NCBI GenBank assembly: GCA_040756055.1
Contig: JBFLZR010000005.1
Span: 62,001 to 126,000, forward strand
Source: Candidatus Zixiibacteriota bacterium
GTDB lineage: Bacteria; Zixibacteria; MSB-5A5; GN15; FEB-12
DNA length: 64,000 nucleotides
Direction: 5' to 3'
Positions 31,786 to 38,515 of the stretch are shown here, piece by piece. The notes under the pieces are model-generated. The model did not search any database and was not told the DNA's origin. It was given only the letters and a program-made list of their open reading frames with translations. Position 1 is the stretch's first letter. Each line of letters starts with the position of its first letter. A program made the position numbers and the translations under genes.

Positions 31786-31914
31786 TCACTTTTCCTTTTT
31801 AGGTTTGGGCTGCTGAAACCTGATAAAACCGCATCCTGGGCAGATCCACTTGCGCTGTTTATGAAACGACCGCTTTTGCTCTTTCATCGTAGATTTGCAG
31901 CGGGGACACTTCAT
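31786..31914 (-). CDS. 42-residue zinc-ribbon protein
   Basis: A short frame with two CxxC knuckles, MKCPRC near the start and WICPGCGF near residue 25, separated by a Lys/Arg-rich linker and followed by a basic tail ending KPKKEK. This is a classic minimal zinc ribbon able to bind nucleic acid or protein. It starts 8 bases after the last gene of the membrane cluster and runs in the same direction, so it is probably its last member. It is easily missed because of its length. Confidence 0.65.
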   Translation of the reverse strand: MKCPRCKSTMKEQKRSFHKQRKWICPGCGFIRFQQPKPKKEK

Positions 31915-31922
31915 AGGCCATC

Positions 31923-32537
31923 TCAGTTCGTGAGTTTGAAGAAATCCGTCAGCAGAAACTCCATGCGGCCAATCAATGTCGACATACGGGACATAACAGT
32001 ATAACCGAACGTGGTGCCGAAAAATATCATCAGGAAGAACGTGCCAATTGTCGCGGCTTTGCCGAATGTCCCCTTGTGCTCGCGGCCGAAATAGAAGTAT
32101 GCCAGGGTACTTATAAGCCCAACAATCACGACCAGCCCGGAAATATCGGGGACACCTGAAGCGTCAGTCAGTGGCATCACAGTGGCTGACATTTGTTTCA
32201 GAGTGCGGCCGTAAAGCATGGCAGGAATGGCCACCCCGGCGCCGGAGCCAATCATAAAGGCAATCGGGATGCGCGACAGCGATGAAGTCTTGTCGTGGAA
32301 CCGTCCCCACATCAAAAGCCCAAGCGCGAATGGAATTATCAGCCAGAAATTCCGCCCCGAAAATAGCGGCTCAAAAAGAATTGCCATCAACGTGTTGGTC
32401 CAGGCAACCACCAGTATATATCCAATAGACACGCCGATTAGCAGATACTCGGCCATCTTGTAAATCGGGTTGTCCCGGTACAAAAAAGTAAGTATGGCCA
32501 GGGTCAGGATTCCCGCGATCAGTGTTCCGGCGTCCAT
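31923..32537 (-). CDS. polytopic membrane protein (cluster gene D), unknown
   Basis: 204 residues with five or six predicted TM helices: a near-terminal pair, YLLIGVSIGYILVVAW, FWLIIPFALGLLMW, FMIGSGAGVAIPAMLYG, LVVIVGLISTLAYFYFG and FFLMIFFGTTFGYTVM. It overlaps gene C by one base. It contains no channel, transporter or enzyme signature I recognise. Tight coupling with genes A, B and C suggests a subunit of one membrane complex. Confidence 0.8.
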   Translation of the reverse strand: MDAGTLIAGILTLAILTFLYRDNPIYKMAEYLLIGVSIGYILVVAWTNTLMAILFEPLFSGRNFWLIIPFALGLLMWGRFHDKTSSLSRIPIAFMIGSGAGVAIPAMLYGRTLKQMSATVMPLTDASGVPDISGLVVIVGLISTLAYFYFGREHKGTFGKAATIGTFFLMIFFGTTFGYTVMSRMSTLIGRMEFLLTDFFKLTN

Positions 32538-33349
32538 CAGGCCCCTCTCCCCTTTTTTCTCGATGCGAAGTACAAAATATTGCCGAGCGCTATTAGCAGA
32601 ATGATGTACAAATGAGCGCTCGATTGAGCCAGCATTCCGCGCGCCCCTCCCCCGCTGACAGCCAAGAGCTTCTCATACTCGGCCGCTCCCCGGAGCCCGC
32701 CCATCATAGCGTACATCTGCCCGGATGACAGGTATGGGTCGTAAGTTGTCACCATCGCCGCCGTTACCGCCCCCAGAACACGGACCCCGTAACGCGCCTG
32801 ACCGTATTCTATCCAGTGCGTCGTCAGAGAACCATCCGCAATGGACAGCACCGCGGCGACATCATCGTAGTTCTTCACCGATCGGGTGAGTTCGAATTGC
32901 CCATAGGGTCTTCCCAGATAATCGAGCGGATAGGTAGTGCCGATCGACTCACCCATCGCCAGAATCGCGGCTATATACTGTGGTCGAAAGCCGAGATAGA
33001 CGTAATCCACGCCATACACCCGGCCGTATTCGCGCGCCGTTTCCTGCATCAGCCGATACCCGATGAGCGTACCCTCGGCCAGGAGAGACACTCCTATGAG
33101 CTTGTGACCTTTCTTGAAGGTGTGACGGAGTACACTCTGTGCGATTGGCCTGATCTCCGGCAGCGATGAAGCCTCGTGATCAAACGAGACAATCAGCACG
33201 GAGCCATCCGGGAGCGAATCGATACAATCATATAGTCGCTGGGTGTACGGCGACACCCGCATATCCAATTTGATGTTGAGAATCATGGCGCCGGCCACAA
33301 CTACGAGAAGACCGAGAAAAGTCCAATGCCGGGCTTCGAATGTTTTCAT
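32537..33349 (-). CDS. TM-soluble-TM membrane protein (cluster gene C), unknown
   Basis: 270 residues from ATG 33349 (after GGGAGGGGACAA). TM helix at ~8-28, a ~200-residue soluble domain with alternating strands and helices (LPDGSVLIVSFDHEASS, KGHKLIGVSLLAEG, YGVDYVYLGFRPQYIAA), and a C-terminal TM helix at ~243-262. Its C-terminal part (YDPYLSSGQMYAMMGGLRG, then MLAQSSAHLYI before the TM) closely parallels gene A, suggesting divergent paralogues. Overlaps gene B by 4 bases and gene D by 1. A longer frame to 33676 lies within gene B and is rejected. Confidence 0.8.
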   Translation of the reverse strand: MKTFEARHWTFLGLLVVVAGAMILNIKLDMRVSPYTQRLYDCIDSLPDGSVLIVSFDHEASSLPEIRPIAQSVLRHTFKKGHKLIGVSLLAEGTLIGYRLMQETAREYGRVYGVDYVYLGFRPQYIAAILAMGESIGTTYPLDYLGRPYGQFELTRSVKNYDDVAAVLSIADGSLTTHWIEYGQARYGVRVLGAVTAAMVTTYDPYLSSGQMYAMMGGLRGAAEYEKLLAVSGGGARGMLAQSSAHLYIILLIALGNILYFASRKKGRGA

Positions 33350-33966
33350 TTGTCCCCTCCCAGCCATGTTCGTTCGATGCCAACAATGACCCGAAGCGAT
33401 GTCGTCAATGAGCCCAGCCCGATTCCAATCAAGATCGCCCGTCGGGCGGCCATCGAAGGATAGTTGCGGATCCAGTCCGCCACCTGTGGCAGTCCGTCGG
33501 AGAAGAAGCCGCCGATATTGGAACGGCTCAGCAGCATCAACAGGGCTGATATCAAAAGCACCGCGGCTGGAAAGGAGCGAGCTCTGAACCCACGAAACGA
33601 TGCCGAAGCGACGAAAAATGCCAGCAGCGCGAACACCGTCGACTGCATCGGAGCTTGAACATTCTCGAACGTCCACATAAACGGCGTATCCGCCTTAATG
33701 CCCCAGATCAATGCAAAAACCGGCATAGACAAGAATCCGAGCAGACCCACCGCACGATAAACCGTATCCTTGTTGCGACTCATCTCGGTCATATTGTTCT
33801 TCAGGTAACTGAACACACCCACAATCAATGTAAAGGCGAAAACGATCTGCCAGTAATCCAAAATGGCCTGATTCAGTGCGCGAGCTGTCGGGTGAGCGGA
33901 GAAATACTGCGCGAACATCACCAATCCGAAAATGAAACAGATAAAAAGCGGTAGCTTGCGACCCAT
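33346..33966 (-). CDS. polytopic membrane protein (cluster gene B), unknown
   Basis: 206 residues with about six hydrophobic segments: LFICFIFGLVMFAQYF, WQIVFAFTLIVGVF, GLLGFLSMPVFALIWG, STVFALLAFFVASAS, FPAAVLLISALLMLL, AILIGIGLGSLTTSL. The start ATG 33966 overlaps the stop of gene A (TGATG), so it is translationally coupled. No recognised family. It resembles gene D in size and layout, though I see no clear sequence similarity. Confidence 0.8.
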   Translation of the reverse strand: MGRKLPLFICFIFGLVMFAQYFSAHPTARALNQAILDYWQIVFAFTLIVGVFSYLKNNMTEMSRNKDTVYRAVGLLGFLSMPVFALIWGIKADTPFMWTFENVQAPMQSTVFALLAFFVASASFRGFRARSFPAAVLLISALLMLLSRSNIGGFFSDGLPQVADWIRNYPSMAARRAILIGIGLGSLTTSLRVIVGIERTWLGGDK

Positions 33967-34793
33967 CAGAACACCCACCAATCGCTCGGGCTGATTCCCA
34001 GGAGAGTCTCAATCGTACTCCACAGGATGGCTGCTGCCAGAAAGATCACGATCAATATTTTCATGATATCCTGTGCTTCGACCGACGCCAGAACGGAACG
34101 GTCCTGCGAAAGGTAACCTGACGCCGCGAATAGTTCTTCGCCGATCAGAGTGTAATCACAGGCTACGATAAAGAAGGACAGTTGTATGGTTGAGTCGGTT
34201 CCGGCTATCTGGATAGCATTTATTGAATTGCCTGTCTCAGCCAAAATCAGGGACTCCGCCTCGAAAGTACCCAGCAAAAAAATCGACGCCGGCTTATGCC
34301 TGGTGATAAGACCGTCGACAGCGGCCGCGTAGCCGAATTGCGATGATGACACATAGGCGATATCATCGGCTTTGTACCGGTCGGGATACCCCTGGCGGGC
34401 ATAACTTCCTTTCACGACCTCCTGTGCCACCGTCATTATGACAGGATCGTGAGTGGGATATACCAGACGGCAGTCATAAGAGGCCGTTTTCTCGGCTACA
34501 TGACTGAGGATATTCATTGAGGCTATCGTGGTAGGCCGCTGGATGTCTCCCCCCCACCCCGGAGTGTATAACACCGGCCGGGCCATTTCAGTCGCCCTCC
34601 CGATAGCGTCTTCAACCGCCTTCAACCCCCCGATTTCCCGAACCTTGAATTCCCTGCCCCGACGCTGACTGAAAGTTGTATAAAGAACAACCAGTATGGC
34701 TATGACTGACGCCGCCAGCGTTGCCAGGGTTTCGGGATTGAACCATTCACCGACCGGCGCGGCGGCCGAAAAGAGTAGATAGGCACCCATCAT
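33966..34793 (-). CDS. TM-soluble-TM membrane protein, DUF6754-like (cluster gene A)
   Basis: 275 residues, first gene of the cluster. TM helix at ~22-42, a soluble Rossmann-like domain with VLYTPGWGGDIQRPTTIASM, DCRLVYPTHDPVIM and SIFLLGTFEAESLI, then DYTLIGEELFAASGYLSQD, EAQDIMKI and a C-terminal TM helix at ~245-265. From memory this matches proteins catalogued as DUF6754; no function is known to me. It is divergent from the sugar ABC operon. Starts at 34793 or the adjacent ATG 34790. Confidence 0.8.
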   Translation of the reverse strand: MMGAYLLFSAAAPVGEWFNPETLATLAASVIAILVVLYTTFSQRRGREFKVREIGGLKAVEDAIGRATEMARPVLYTPGWGGDIQRPTTIASMNILSHVAEKTASYDCRLVYPTHDPVIMTVAQEVVKGSYARQGYPDRYKADDIAYVSSSQFGYAAAVDGLITRHKPASIFLLGTFEAESLILAETGNSINAIQIAGTDSTIQLSFFIVACDYTLIGEELFAASGYLSQDRSVLASVEAQDIMKILIVIFLAAAILWSTIETLLGISPSDWWVF

Positions 34794-34915: not shown

Positions 34916-36130
34916 ATGAAATCCAGACTATTACTTGGTATCTTTTTGATTCTGTTATTGAGTGTATCCGCTAACGCCAAAACCACCATTACCTGGTGGC
35001 AGTTCTGGACCGATCCCCAGATCAAACCGGTCATCGAGCAAATGACGGCTGAATTTGAAAAGGCAAATCCCGATATCGAGGTAAAACTGACCGATCTCAC
35101 CTGGGCCAACGGTCACGAAAAGATCGTTATCGCTTTCGGCTCCAGTACCGGCCCCGATATAGTCGAACTTGGCTCAGACTGGATTGCCGAGTTCGCAACC
35201 AATGGCCTGCTTTACGATATGTCGGCCGAGATCGCCGCCGATAGCTCCCGGTATCAGGGCTGGAGCATGGCCACATATAAGGGCAAGGTCTTTGCCTATC
35301 CATGGATTCTCGGAACGCGCGTGATGTTTGCAAACCGTGATCTTCTCAATCGTGCCGGCTACGATAGCAGCTTCGTGCCGCTCTCTCTGGACGAATTCAA
35401 GGCCGCGGCGGAGAAGATTGATAGTCTCGACTCGAAAATATACGGGTGGGGCTCCAACACTCCGGAAAAGCATCGCCTCTACAAAAAGTATTTGCCCTTC
35501 TTCTGGTCCAAGGGAGCACAGATTTTCTCCGATGACGGTCGGTTCTGCCTGGTGGCCTCCGACCTGGCCATCTCCGCTCTCAAGCTCTACAAAGAACTGC
35601 ACGATAGTTGCGGCTATGTCGCCGACCAGCGCGGAATAGAGGACGCGTTCCTCGAAGGCAGGATCGGCTTTATACTTTCGGGCGATTGGCTTTTGAAGAG
35701 GATCGAAAAAGAGAAACCAAATTTTCCGCTGGTCTCGACCCTGATGCCGGGGGCCAAATTGCCAGGGCGGTCATTTCTTGGCGGGGAATTTTTGGCCGTG
35801 AATGCCGCGTCGAAACACAAAGATGCCGCCATGAAATTCATCCGGTTCGTTACATCTGCCGAGAACCAGCTCAGGTTCTGCAAAGCTAATTACTCGGCGA
35901 ATCCGTCAAGTTACCAGGCTCAGGACGATGGATACTTCGCATCGAATATACATCTTCTTACCTTTATCAAACAAATGCGTCTGGCAAAACATCCCCCGGT
36001 TGACCCCGACTGGGTGTATATCGAAGAAGCCATCGAAAAGGCCGTCGAGGACGTAGTGTTTAAGAATGCTTCCGTGGCTAATTCCCTGATGACGGCACGC
36101 AAAAAAATAGAGAAGATGAAACAAAGATGA
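34916..36130 (+). CDS. ABC transporter sugar-binding protein
   Basis: 404 residues with a signal peptide (1-21, cut after ANA). Family-1 solute-binding pattern: ITWWQFWTDP, EFEKANPDIEVKL, GPDIVELGSDWIAEFA, YPWILGTRVMFANRDLL, GRIGFILSGDWLL, FLGGEFLAVNAASKHKDAAMKF. There is no lipobox, so it is a free periplasmic protein, fitting a diderm cell. It delivers a sugar or oligosaccharide to the permeases encoded directly downstream. GGGAG ribosome site. Confidence 0.92.
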   Translation: MKSRLLLGIFLILLLSVSANAKTTITWWQFWTDPQIKPVIEQMTAEFEKANPDIEVKLTDLTWANGHEKIVIAFGSSTGPDIVELGSDWIAEFATNGLLYDMSAEIAADSSRYQGWSMATYKGKVFAYPWILGTRVMFANRDLLNRAGYDSSFVPLSLDEFKAAAEKIDSLDSKIYGWGSNTPEKHRLYKKYLPFFWSKGAQIFSDDGRFCLVASDLAISALKLYKELHDSCGYVADQRGIEDAFLEGRIGFILSGDWLLKRIEKEKPNFPLVSTLMPGAKLPGRSFLGGEFLAVNAASKHKDAAMKFIRFVTSAENQLRFCKANYSANPSSYQAQDDGYFASNIHLLTFIKQMRLAKHPPVDPDWVYIEEAIEKAVEDVVFKNASVANSLMTARKKIEKMKQR

Positions 36131-36996
36131 AATGGTCAAAAGCCGGGGCCTTCACCCTTGCACTCCCCTGGCTGATTACATTCGCCGTTTTCTGGTTGTT
36201 CCCGATCGTCTATTCATTTGTGATCGGGTTTACCGACCAGCAGCTACTGGCGAAGGATTACGACTGGATAGGTCTGGACAATTATCGCGCGCTCTTTACG
36301 GATCCGGCCTTTATCTCTTCGCTTGAAAGCACCTTTGTCTTCGTGTTCGGCACCATCCCGGTTACGACCATTATCGCGCTCGGCATGGCGCTTCTGATAA
36401 ACCGGCAATTTCGATTGCGTGGATTGTTCAGGGCCGGCTATTTCTTGCCGTCAATCACTTCAATAATCGTCATAGCGCTGATTTTCACCAACCTGTATCA
36501 GCGGGGAGGTTATATCGCGTACCTGGCGTCGCTAGTCGGGCTCGATGTCCCCGAACACGGATTTCTACTTTCCAGTGATACCTCTCTGTATTCCATTATG
36601 GCTATGGATGTCTGGATGGCGGTCGGATATTACATGCTTATTTTCCTGGCCGGGCTCAAATCAATACCGGATGAACTGTATGAAGTTGCCGAGTTGAGCG
36701 GCGCTGGCAAGATCCGTCAATTTTTCTCGATAACACTGCCGCTGCTCAGACCGGTTGCGCTCTTCATTATCGTAATAAATTCAATCAAATCTTTCCAGGT
36801 ATTTGCCGAGATCTTCGTGATGACAAAAGGGAAATTTGAGACTTCCACGATGGTGTACTTCATATATGAAACCGGCCTGACGACGAAATTCGAATTCGGC
36901 TACGCCTCGGCGGCCGCTTATGTTCTGTTTATCATTATCGCCGTCTTTGCCGCCATCCAGTTTACACTCTTCAGAAAGAGGCAGGCTGTATGGTGA
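36127..36996 (+). CDS. sugar ABC transporter permease (MalF-type)
   Basis: 289 residues, six TM helices, with the EAA loop EVAELSGAGKIRQFFSIT that docks on the ATPase. It overlaps the binding-protein gene by 4 bases (ATGA) and the next permease by 7, so the three are translationally coupled. Confidence 0.92.
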   Translation: MKWSKAGAFTLALPWLITFAVFWLFPIVYSFVIGFTDQQLLAKDYDWIGLDNYRALFTDPAFISSLESTFVFVFGTIPVTTIIALGMALLINRQFRLRGLFRAGYFLPSITSIIVIALIFTNLYQRGGYIAYLASLVGLDVPEHGFLLSSDTSLYSIMAMDVWMAVGYYMLIFLAGLKSIPDELYEVAELSGAGKIRQFFSITLPLLRPVALFIIVINSIKSFQVFAEIFVMTKGKFETSTMVYFIYETGLTTKFEFGYASAAAYVLFIIIAVFAAIQFTLFRKRQAVW

Positions 36997-37811
36997 TACG
37001 ATTCCTTCGTGCCTCTGCGCGATACCTGGCGCTGTCACTAATCCTGCTTGTGATGGTTTTCCCTCTCGTCTGGATGATGCGCGTGTCTCTGCTTCAATCC
37101 GGAGCAAGCATCGCTCTAAGCGATATTTTCAACCACCAGTTTACTTTTGATAACTACCTCGACCTTTTCCGAACCACCAGCATCGGGATAGCTCTTTTCA
37201 ACTCGGCGCTTGTGGGACTCGTTGTAACACTCGGCAACATCTTTTTCTGTTTCATGGTCGCCTACACGCTGGCCCGCTATGAATACATCGTCAACAAACT
37301 CTTGTTCGTTATCGTTATTGCGATTCTGATGATCCCGGCGCATATCGTGATTATCCCGATGTATCTTCTGATGGTCAAGACGGGCCTTTATGACGGCTTC
37401 GGGGCGCTTATACTCCCCTGGCTTGTCAACCCGATCGGGATTTTTCTCGTAAAACAGTATATAGAAACCATACCTCCATCGATGGAAGAAGCTGCGCGTA
37501 TCGATGGCGCCGGTGAGATGCGGATAATTTTCAGGATCATCATGCCCCTGTGCAAACCGGCGCTGGCTGTGCTCGCGATTCAGGTATTTTTTACCAACTG
37601 GAACTCGTTTCTCTTCCCATTTATTCTGACTCAGAGCGAGCAAATTAGGACTCTTCCCGTCGCTCTAGCCGTCTACCAGGGTCATCAGGCCGTCGACTGG
37701 CAACATCTTATGGCCGGCTCCACGATAGCCGTTATCCCCGTTCTGGTTATCTTCATCATAATGCAGCGGCAGATAGTCTCCGGAATAACTTCAGGGGGCA
37801 TAAAACAGTAA
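36990..37811 (+). CDS. sugar ABC transporter permease (MalG-type)
   Basis: 273 residues, six TM helices, EAA loop EEAARIDGAGEMRIIFRIIM, and the terminal VSGITSGGIKQ typical of MalG/UgpE-like permeases. It closes the operon; no ATPase gene follows, so a shared MsmX/UgpC-type ATPase encoded elsewhere must energise the importer. Confidence 0.92.
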   Translation: MVIRFLRASARYLALSLILLVMVFPLVWMMRVSLLQSGASIALSDIFNHQFTFDNYLDLFRTTSIGIALFNSALVGLVVTLGNIFFCFMVAYTLARYEYIVNKLLFVIVIAILMIPAHIVIIPMYLLMVKTGLYDGFGALILPWLVNPIGIFLVKQYIETIPPSMEEAARIDGAGEMRIIFRIIMPLCKPALAVLAIQVFFTNWNSFLFPFILTQSEQIRTLPVALAVYQGHQAVDWQHLMAGSTIAVIPVLVIFIIMQRQIVSGITSGGIKQ

Positions 37812-37921: not shown

Positions 37922-38515
37922 ATGCGAATCTTTCTAGTTGTTGCACTGTTGCTGTCGCTTATGTTTGTCGGCTGCGGAGCCAGCAAAGACTACGTAGCAC
38001 AGCAGATTCAACAATCCGAGGCTAAGACAAGCGCCGAGATCAACGCTGTCCGTGAAAAAACTGATACTAACGCGGCTGAGATCAAAAAACTGCAGTCACT
38101 GGCCGCCCAAATTTCTGAGAAAGCCGACCTCGCTATCAACAAGGCCAAAGGATTTGAGAACTATCAGATTATCTGGCAGGGCGAAATCAATTTCGATTTC
38201 GACAGCTATCTCATCACCGGCACCGCCGAGTCGATTCTCAACGAAGCCGGTGAGAAAATGGAAGAATTCCCCGGTTCTATCCTTGAAGTAGCCGGTTACA
38301 CCGACCGCACTGGAACGGCGAAATACAACTATATGCTGGGTCAGCAGCGCGCCGATGCCACCAAAAGGTTTTTGGCCTCCAAATTCGGCATCTCCCTGTA
38401 TCGCATGTTCACGGTGTCTTACGGCGAGGATAAGCCTGTGGCCCTTCCTGATGAGCAGAACGCTTCCTCCAAAAACCGCCGCGTGACTCTCGCCGTCTGG
38501 GGCGAACTGAAGTAG
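37922..38515 (+). CDS. OmpA/Pal-like peptidoglycan-associated lipoprotein
   Basis: 197 residues. Lipobox LMFVGC at ~15-20, a heptad-rich coiled-coil segment (~25-75), then an OmpA_C-like domain with INFDFDSYLITG, LEVAGYTDRTGTAKYNYMLGQQRA (murein-binding Asp/Arg region) and NRRVTLAVWG. It should tether the outer membrane to murein. It is followed by a strong terminator and has its own candidate promoter, so it is likely a highly expressed single gene. Confidence 0.88.
   Translation: MRIFLVVALLLSLMFVGCGASKDYVAQQIQQSEAKTSAEINAVREKTDTNAAEIKKLQSLAAQISEKADLAINKAKGFENYQIIWQGEINFDFDSYLITGTAESILNEAGEKMEEFPGSILEVAGYTDRTGTAKYNYMLGQQRADATKRFLASKFGISLYRMFTVSYGEDKPVALPDEQNASSKNRRVTLAVWGELK

Follow-up and report, generated by a model that had tools for sequence, protein, structure and literature searches.

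What does a tightly packed run of membrane-protein genes do in a bacterium of a little-studied phylum, and does it act alone? The run, here called the A-B-C-D cassette after its four main genes, lies on the minus strand within 64,000 nucleotides of a Candidatus Zixiibacteriota genome (contig JBFLZR010000005.1, positions 62,001 to 126,000; this whole stretch is termed the window). A sequence-only reading of the window had proposed a five-gene cluster in which two paralogous proteins, A and C, join a membrane core of B and D as a possible sensor or transporter. We find that A-B-C-D is a conserved unit and that it very probably forms a single system with partner proteins encoded outside the window, among them a member of an ATPase family. 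The genes of the window cassette are as follows.

33966-34793, minus strand: gene A, 275 residues, DUF6754 protein
33346-33966, minus strand: gene B, 206 residues, open reading frame from ATG
32537-33349, minus strand: gene C, 270 residues
31923-32537, minus strand: gene D, 204 residues
31786-31914, minus strand: gene Z, 42-residue zinc ribbon, CPxC ... FHKxRKWxCPxC

The coordinates were confirmed, and the tight coupling claimed for these genes was borne out: the overlap is 1 base (TGATG) for A/B and for C/D and 4 bases (ATGA) for B/C, and Z starts 8 bases past D. A scan for promoters and terminators gave no signal exceeding chance.

A-B-C-D is a conserved four-gene unit

Scanning genome contigs with A yielded 80 loci, and gene order was counted on these together with two further loci of the source genome (L007 and L008). 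The order A-B-C-D was found in 72 of the 82 loci; seven were cut by contig ends, two carried A alone and one was ordered A-B-D-C (L079:1488-3031, the sole such locus). An Armatimonadota locus (L143:8006-9771) has two consecutive A genes followed by B-C-D. Tandem arrays of 2-3 copies occur at approximately ten loci, and the source genome holds five copies: that of the window, three in tandem (L007) and one single (L008). The cassette is present in about 15 phyla, namely Zixiibacteriota, Fermentibacterota, Poribacteria, WOR-3, TA06, Latescibacterota, Cloacimonadota, Gemmatimonadota, Armatimonadota, Eisenbacteria, Stahlbacteria, Mcinerneyibacteriota, Edwardsbacteria, Riflebacteria, CSSED10-310 and Bdellovibrionota. 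The neighbourhood check suggested by the sequence-only reading, conservation of this order across phyla, thus identified A-B-C-D as one conserved unit. One contig labelled 'Ignavibacterium sp.' (L019) was excluded from the phylum count, because its match to the partner protein L (see below) is identical in contig number, coordinates and score to that of a genome from the source genome's own order (G037); the species label looks wrong.

Gene A was detected in all 98 genomes of the source phylum, most of which carry several copies, in 110 of 121 Armatimonadota genomes and in 11 of the 13 available Gemmatimonadota genomes. It scored over the cut-off in 3/114 Bdellovibrionota genomes and was missing from all 14 well-known control genomes. 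Of the 81 D copies whose downstream DNA could be read, 13, including that of the window, are followed by a zinc ribbon, and these 13 loci all belong to one Zixibacteria clade. As Z is kept only at these 13 subfamily loci, the description as a five-gene cluster fits the window's own subfamily, and the core of the wider system consists of four genes; Z was accordingly rejected as a core component.

Partner proteins travel with the cassette

Clustering of neighbouring genes across phyla revealed four recurrent companions, which the sequence-only reading had not noticed and which we term M, L, S and P. M, about 600-655 residues long, is an ASKHA protein of the GlmL/MutL family (PF13941, 429.7 bits against a cut-off of 27) with intact nucleotide motifs, DCGSTTTK and GVDIGGATTDVF; its scores stay under each of the three NCBIfam GlmL cut-offs (NF040745, TIGR01319: 238 against 475; 176 against 204). 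L has about 375 residues and a mean column identity of 63%. Across 13 L proteins the N terminus gave weak barrel-sandwich matches to Biotin_lipoyl (11/13), RnfC_N (8/13) and NQRA_N (3/13); the best RnfC_N match among them reached 1.2e-5, and the first member scored a weak 20.5 bits against a cut-off of 25.6. One weak KOW match was also seen. The remainder of L had no strong match, and a sequence search of the PDB returned no significant relative of L. S is a small protein of about 95-165 residues, longer in some cases, and P has about 140 residues and about two transmembrane helices.

In several phyla the companions and the cassette form one continuous run, which reads P-S-M-L-A-B-C-D at an Armatimonadota locus (L144) and a Fermentibacterota locus (L154), S-M-L-A-B-C-D at a Gemmatimonadota locus (L153) and A-B-C-D-S-M-L at a Riflebacteria locus (L077). 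M and L also occur as natural fusions of 931-982 residues (L107:9563-12358, L108:6965-9808 and L109:8010-10958). The genomes with these fusions have separate M and L genes as well, and no A-B-C-D adjoins the fusions.

Presence and absence of the partners match those of the cassette. In the source phylum, M was found in 58 and L in 59 of 60 genomes, both usually in single copy. Among 114 Bdellovibrionota genomes, three had both A and L over the cut-off and 111 had neither, and M exceeded its cut-off in exactly those three; in one Bdellovibrionota genome (G251), M-L is located away from the A cassettes. Armatimonadota gave 110 genomes with A and L, eight with neither, three with L only and none with A only. 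Fisher tests of the association between A and L, in which kinship among genomes is ignored, gave P = 2e-10 in Armatimonadota and P = 4e-6 in Bdellovibrionota. Among 41 genomes with A that were traced from loci in many phyla, 38 had L. Glutamate mutase subunit E (PF06368) is not found in the source genome and exceeded its cut-off in only 5 of the 60 genomes of the phylum, and a glutamate mutase link of M was rejected for that phylum. The scarcity of this enzyme, the position of M below the GlmL cut-offs and the co-occurrence together tie M to A-B-C-D and not to glutamate mutase.

Modelled folds and predicted topology of the cassette proteins

A is a full-length member of DUF6754 (PF20539; E=1.8e-97, 326 bits against a gathering cut-off of 27), an unstudied family known by name, to which B-D, M, L, S and P do not belong. 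C has no Pfam or NCBIfam family above cut-off and no significant match in a PDB sequence search, and B and D have no match in Pfam, NCBIfam or PDB sequences. Searching the PDB by sequence with alignments of 72-93 homologues yielded no significant relative of A-D. The statement that no subunit belongs to a family of known function therefore stands, with A placed only in DUF6754 and B-D in none. Pfam and NCBIfam searches assigned A-D to no known permease family and detected in them no ABC (ATP-binding cassette) nucleotide-binding domain. B and D have no MotA_ExbB domain, and the cassette has no TolQ/ExbB-like subunit. Neither the cassette proteins A-D nor L and S showed a conserved cysteine cluster of the Fe-S type, and PADLOC matched no anti-phage defence model to A-D, M, L or S.

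B and D are polytopic, as had been proposed. B has approximately six transmembrane helices, with its N terminus predicted inside, and conserved charged residues at R123, R126, R174, E196 and R197 (numbering of the aligned fragment). D has 5-6 transmembrane helices with its N terminus predicted outside, and carries the motifs FLY.DNPFYK.AEH and FG..FGYTVM.R. The two share no similarity in profile comparison, and a relationship between them is not supported.

A and C each have a single hydrophobic helix at either end of a soluble alpha/beta domain, again as described from the sequence. AlphaFold2 models (mean predicted local distance difference test scores of 91.9 for A and 96.1 for C) have the same order of elements: a transmembrane helix, a helix, six strand-helix units and a last, long transmembrane helix, with two additional short helices in C. 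Both proteins are thus confidently modelled as Rossmann-like domains anchored by two helices. Foldseek searches of the PDB returned only generic Rossmann-like folds for A, including a molybdenum-cofactor-binding protein and the MthK RCK domain (best E 7e-3, none <0.001), and generic glycosyltransferase and dehydrogenase folds for C (best E 8e-4, low TM-scores). In 96 homologues of A, lysines plus arginines number 1.7 before the first transmembrane helix and 4.5 after it; for C, the values are 2.8 before the first helix and 4.2 after the last. Owing to this distribution of positive charge, the soluble domain of A is predicted to be cytoplasmic and that of C periplasmic, so that the membrane would separate the two, a feature that the sequence-only reading had missed. 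In longer A proteins, the first transmembrane helix is preceded by an N-terminal extension, called as fn3 in 3/20; an FN3-like ectodomain is present in most A homologues and missing from window A and many members of its subfamily.

The models support a similar architecture of A and C. Common descent is left without sequence support: kinship was assessed with five-member and deep profiles, with trimmed, reversed and column-shuffled controls and with an ungapped motif search, and every sequence test came out at chance level, so the claim that A and C are paralogues is unproven. In hhalign, the probability was ~5% or less, and the score of 18.0 equalled that of the reversed profile and lay inside the range of column shuffles. 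The best ungapped match between A and C was reached by 51 of 60 shuffles and is therefore not above chance. The C-terminal pattern that had been reported as common to both proteins was mis-registered, as window A reads LIGEELFAASGYL and window C reads LSSGQMYAMMGGL; its core, [LM][FY]A..G.L, occurs in 15/93 A homologues and 2/80 C homologues.

The window subfamily and its neighbours

In a tree of A proteins, the window copy belongs to an 18-member clade (support 100) drawn entirely from Zixibacteria or relatives, the doubtful Ignavibacterium label aside. The window copy is one paralogous A-B-C-D module of this subfamily, and in most members the cassette is transcribed away from genes for a sugar ABC importer and an OmpA lipoprotein, which lie outside the core:

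34916-36130, plus strand: sugar-type ABC solute-binding protein (SBP_bac_1, 1.6e-39), kept in 12 loci
36127-36996, plus strand: ABC permease (BPD_transp_1, 2.1e-14), kept in 13 loci
36990-37811, plus strand: ABC permease (BPD_transp_1, 3e-16), kept in 12 loci
37922-38515, plus strand: OmpA-family lipoprotein (OmpA, 2e-17), kept in 9 loci

No ATPase gene adjoins the importer genes (the binding protein and the permeases at 36127-37811), and the divergent arrangement is kept in the subfamily.

Possible envelope link and proposed mechanism

In the source genome, M, a 259-residue protein and L precede tolQ-tolR-tolA-tolB-pal and are divergent from three A-B-C-D copies; the order M, 259-residue protein, L and tol genes recurs in G044. 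Downstream of D in Fermentibacterota come a gene for a TonB-dependent receptor and genes of the ExbB/ExbD type. These neighbourhoods suggest an envelope role for the system. The protein of ~259 residues between M and L, upstream of tol-pal (L106:5197-5976 and L113:10208-10984), has an N-terminal hydrophobic segment, and its L106 copy has no Pfam match.

We propose, with a probability of roughly 40%, that the window module is part of an ATP-dependent inner-membrane machine that serves the envelope, its complex formation, energy coupling and envelope role being what we infer from the data above. One M and one L encoded elsewhere in the genome would complete the window-type module, and other genomes would add S and P. 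M and L would act as a single cytoplasmic ATP-using unit that docks on A at its Rossmann-like domain. By binding or hydrolysing ATP, M could then alter the shape of A; relayed by the B/D core, this change could reach the periplasmic domain of C and, in A proteins that have one, the FN3-like ectodomain, with the output that something in the envelope is moved, loaded or assembled. Multiple A-B-C-D copies may represent versions with different cargo or partners that run on one shared M-L engine. Several observations speak against such a machine: the window's own A-B-C-D is remote from M and L, no A was detected in three Armatimonadota genomes that have L, and the Tol-Pal and TonB neighbourhoods are limited to some lineages; moreover, M and L may be regulatory instead of a motor.

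Genes for Tol-Pal (source genome) and TonB-ExbBD (Fermentibacterota) adjoin the system, and energy would likewise pass from the inner membrane to the envelope; unlike these systems, the cassette has no TolQ/ExbB-like subunit. In the secretion and pilus platforms, the ASKHA scaffolds GspL and PilM pair a cytoplasmic actin-fold protein with an inner-membrane platform. M and its membrane module recall this arrangement, whereas the neighbouring genes examined included none for a secretion ATPase, a pilin or a secretin.

Alternative explanations

The cassette could instead be a sensor or regulator, in which the cytoplasmic domain of A or the periplasmic domain of C binds a ligand, B and D relay the signal and M and L either control or read out the state. 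The ligand-binding RCK domain of MthK and the molybdenum-cofactor-binding protein are among the best, although weak, structural matches of A, and at about a dozen loci the window-type copy and a sugar importer are arranged divergently. However, none of these matches reaches E <0.001, and no output domain (kinase, cyclase or helix-turn-helix) was found in the cassette, although the subfamily's zinc ribbon could be one; we consider this explanation unlikely. A solute or lipid transporter, with B and D as permease, C as a tethered periplasmic binding domain and A gating with ATP through M-L, would account for the presence of two polytopic subunits that carry conserved charged residues, for predicted Rossmann-like domains on both sides of the membrane and for an ATPase partner. 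Yet A-D contain neither an ABC nucleotide-binding domain nor a known permease family, and the ASKHA family of M is not known as a driver of transport, which makes a transporter doubtful.

Two further possibilities rest on the partners. If L were an RnfC/NqrA-like subunit and B and D membrane electron carriers, the system would be an Rnf/Nqr-like redox pump; the weak N-terminal matches of L and the opposite predicted orientations of B (N-in) and D (N-out) are consistent with this, but L and the cassette proteins have no Fe-S cysteine clusters, the membrane partners are unrelated in sequence and no PDB sequence match to Rnf or Nqr was obtained, so that a redox pump is highly improbable. M might also be a GlmL-type accessory of a B12-dependent mutase whose co-occurrence with A-B-C-D is coincidental. 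The founding PF13941 members adjoin glutamate mutase genes, and M is a 430-bit member of that family with its nucleotide motifs intact. It differs from MutL/GlmL proteins (PF13941; TIGR01319, NF040745) in its sub-threshold NCBIfam scores, in its tie to DUF6754 and in its fusion to L in some genomes; the linked operons, the matched presence and absence and the near absence of mutase subunit E from a phylum that almost always carries M leave coincidence with very little to recommend it.

Significance

In the open-access papers searched, we found no mention of DUF6754, PF20539, PF13941 or 'methylaspartate mutase accessory protein' and no description of such a gene cluster. The cassette is inherited jointly with an unusual ATPase across many little-studied bacterial phyla. 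Somewhat more tentatively than for the window module itself, A-B-C-D with M, L, S and P could constitute a new class of ATP-driven inner-membrane machine for general envelope maintenance or assembly in a dozen or more phyla. Such a machine would have a pair of similar Rossmann-like domains, one on each side of the membrane, and a single ASKHA engine common to several paralogous modules. Because several phyla carry it as a single operon, the system can be moved, expressed and structurally solved as one unit. A GlmL-family ATPase named as a glutamate mutase accessory thereby gains a testable job in genomes that mostly do not have that enzyme. Near-universal in at least two phyla and frequent in another, the system is probably important in the cell biology of these bacteria and has been overlooked by work on model organisms.

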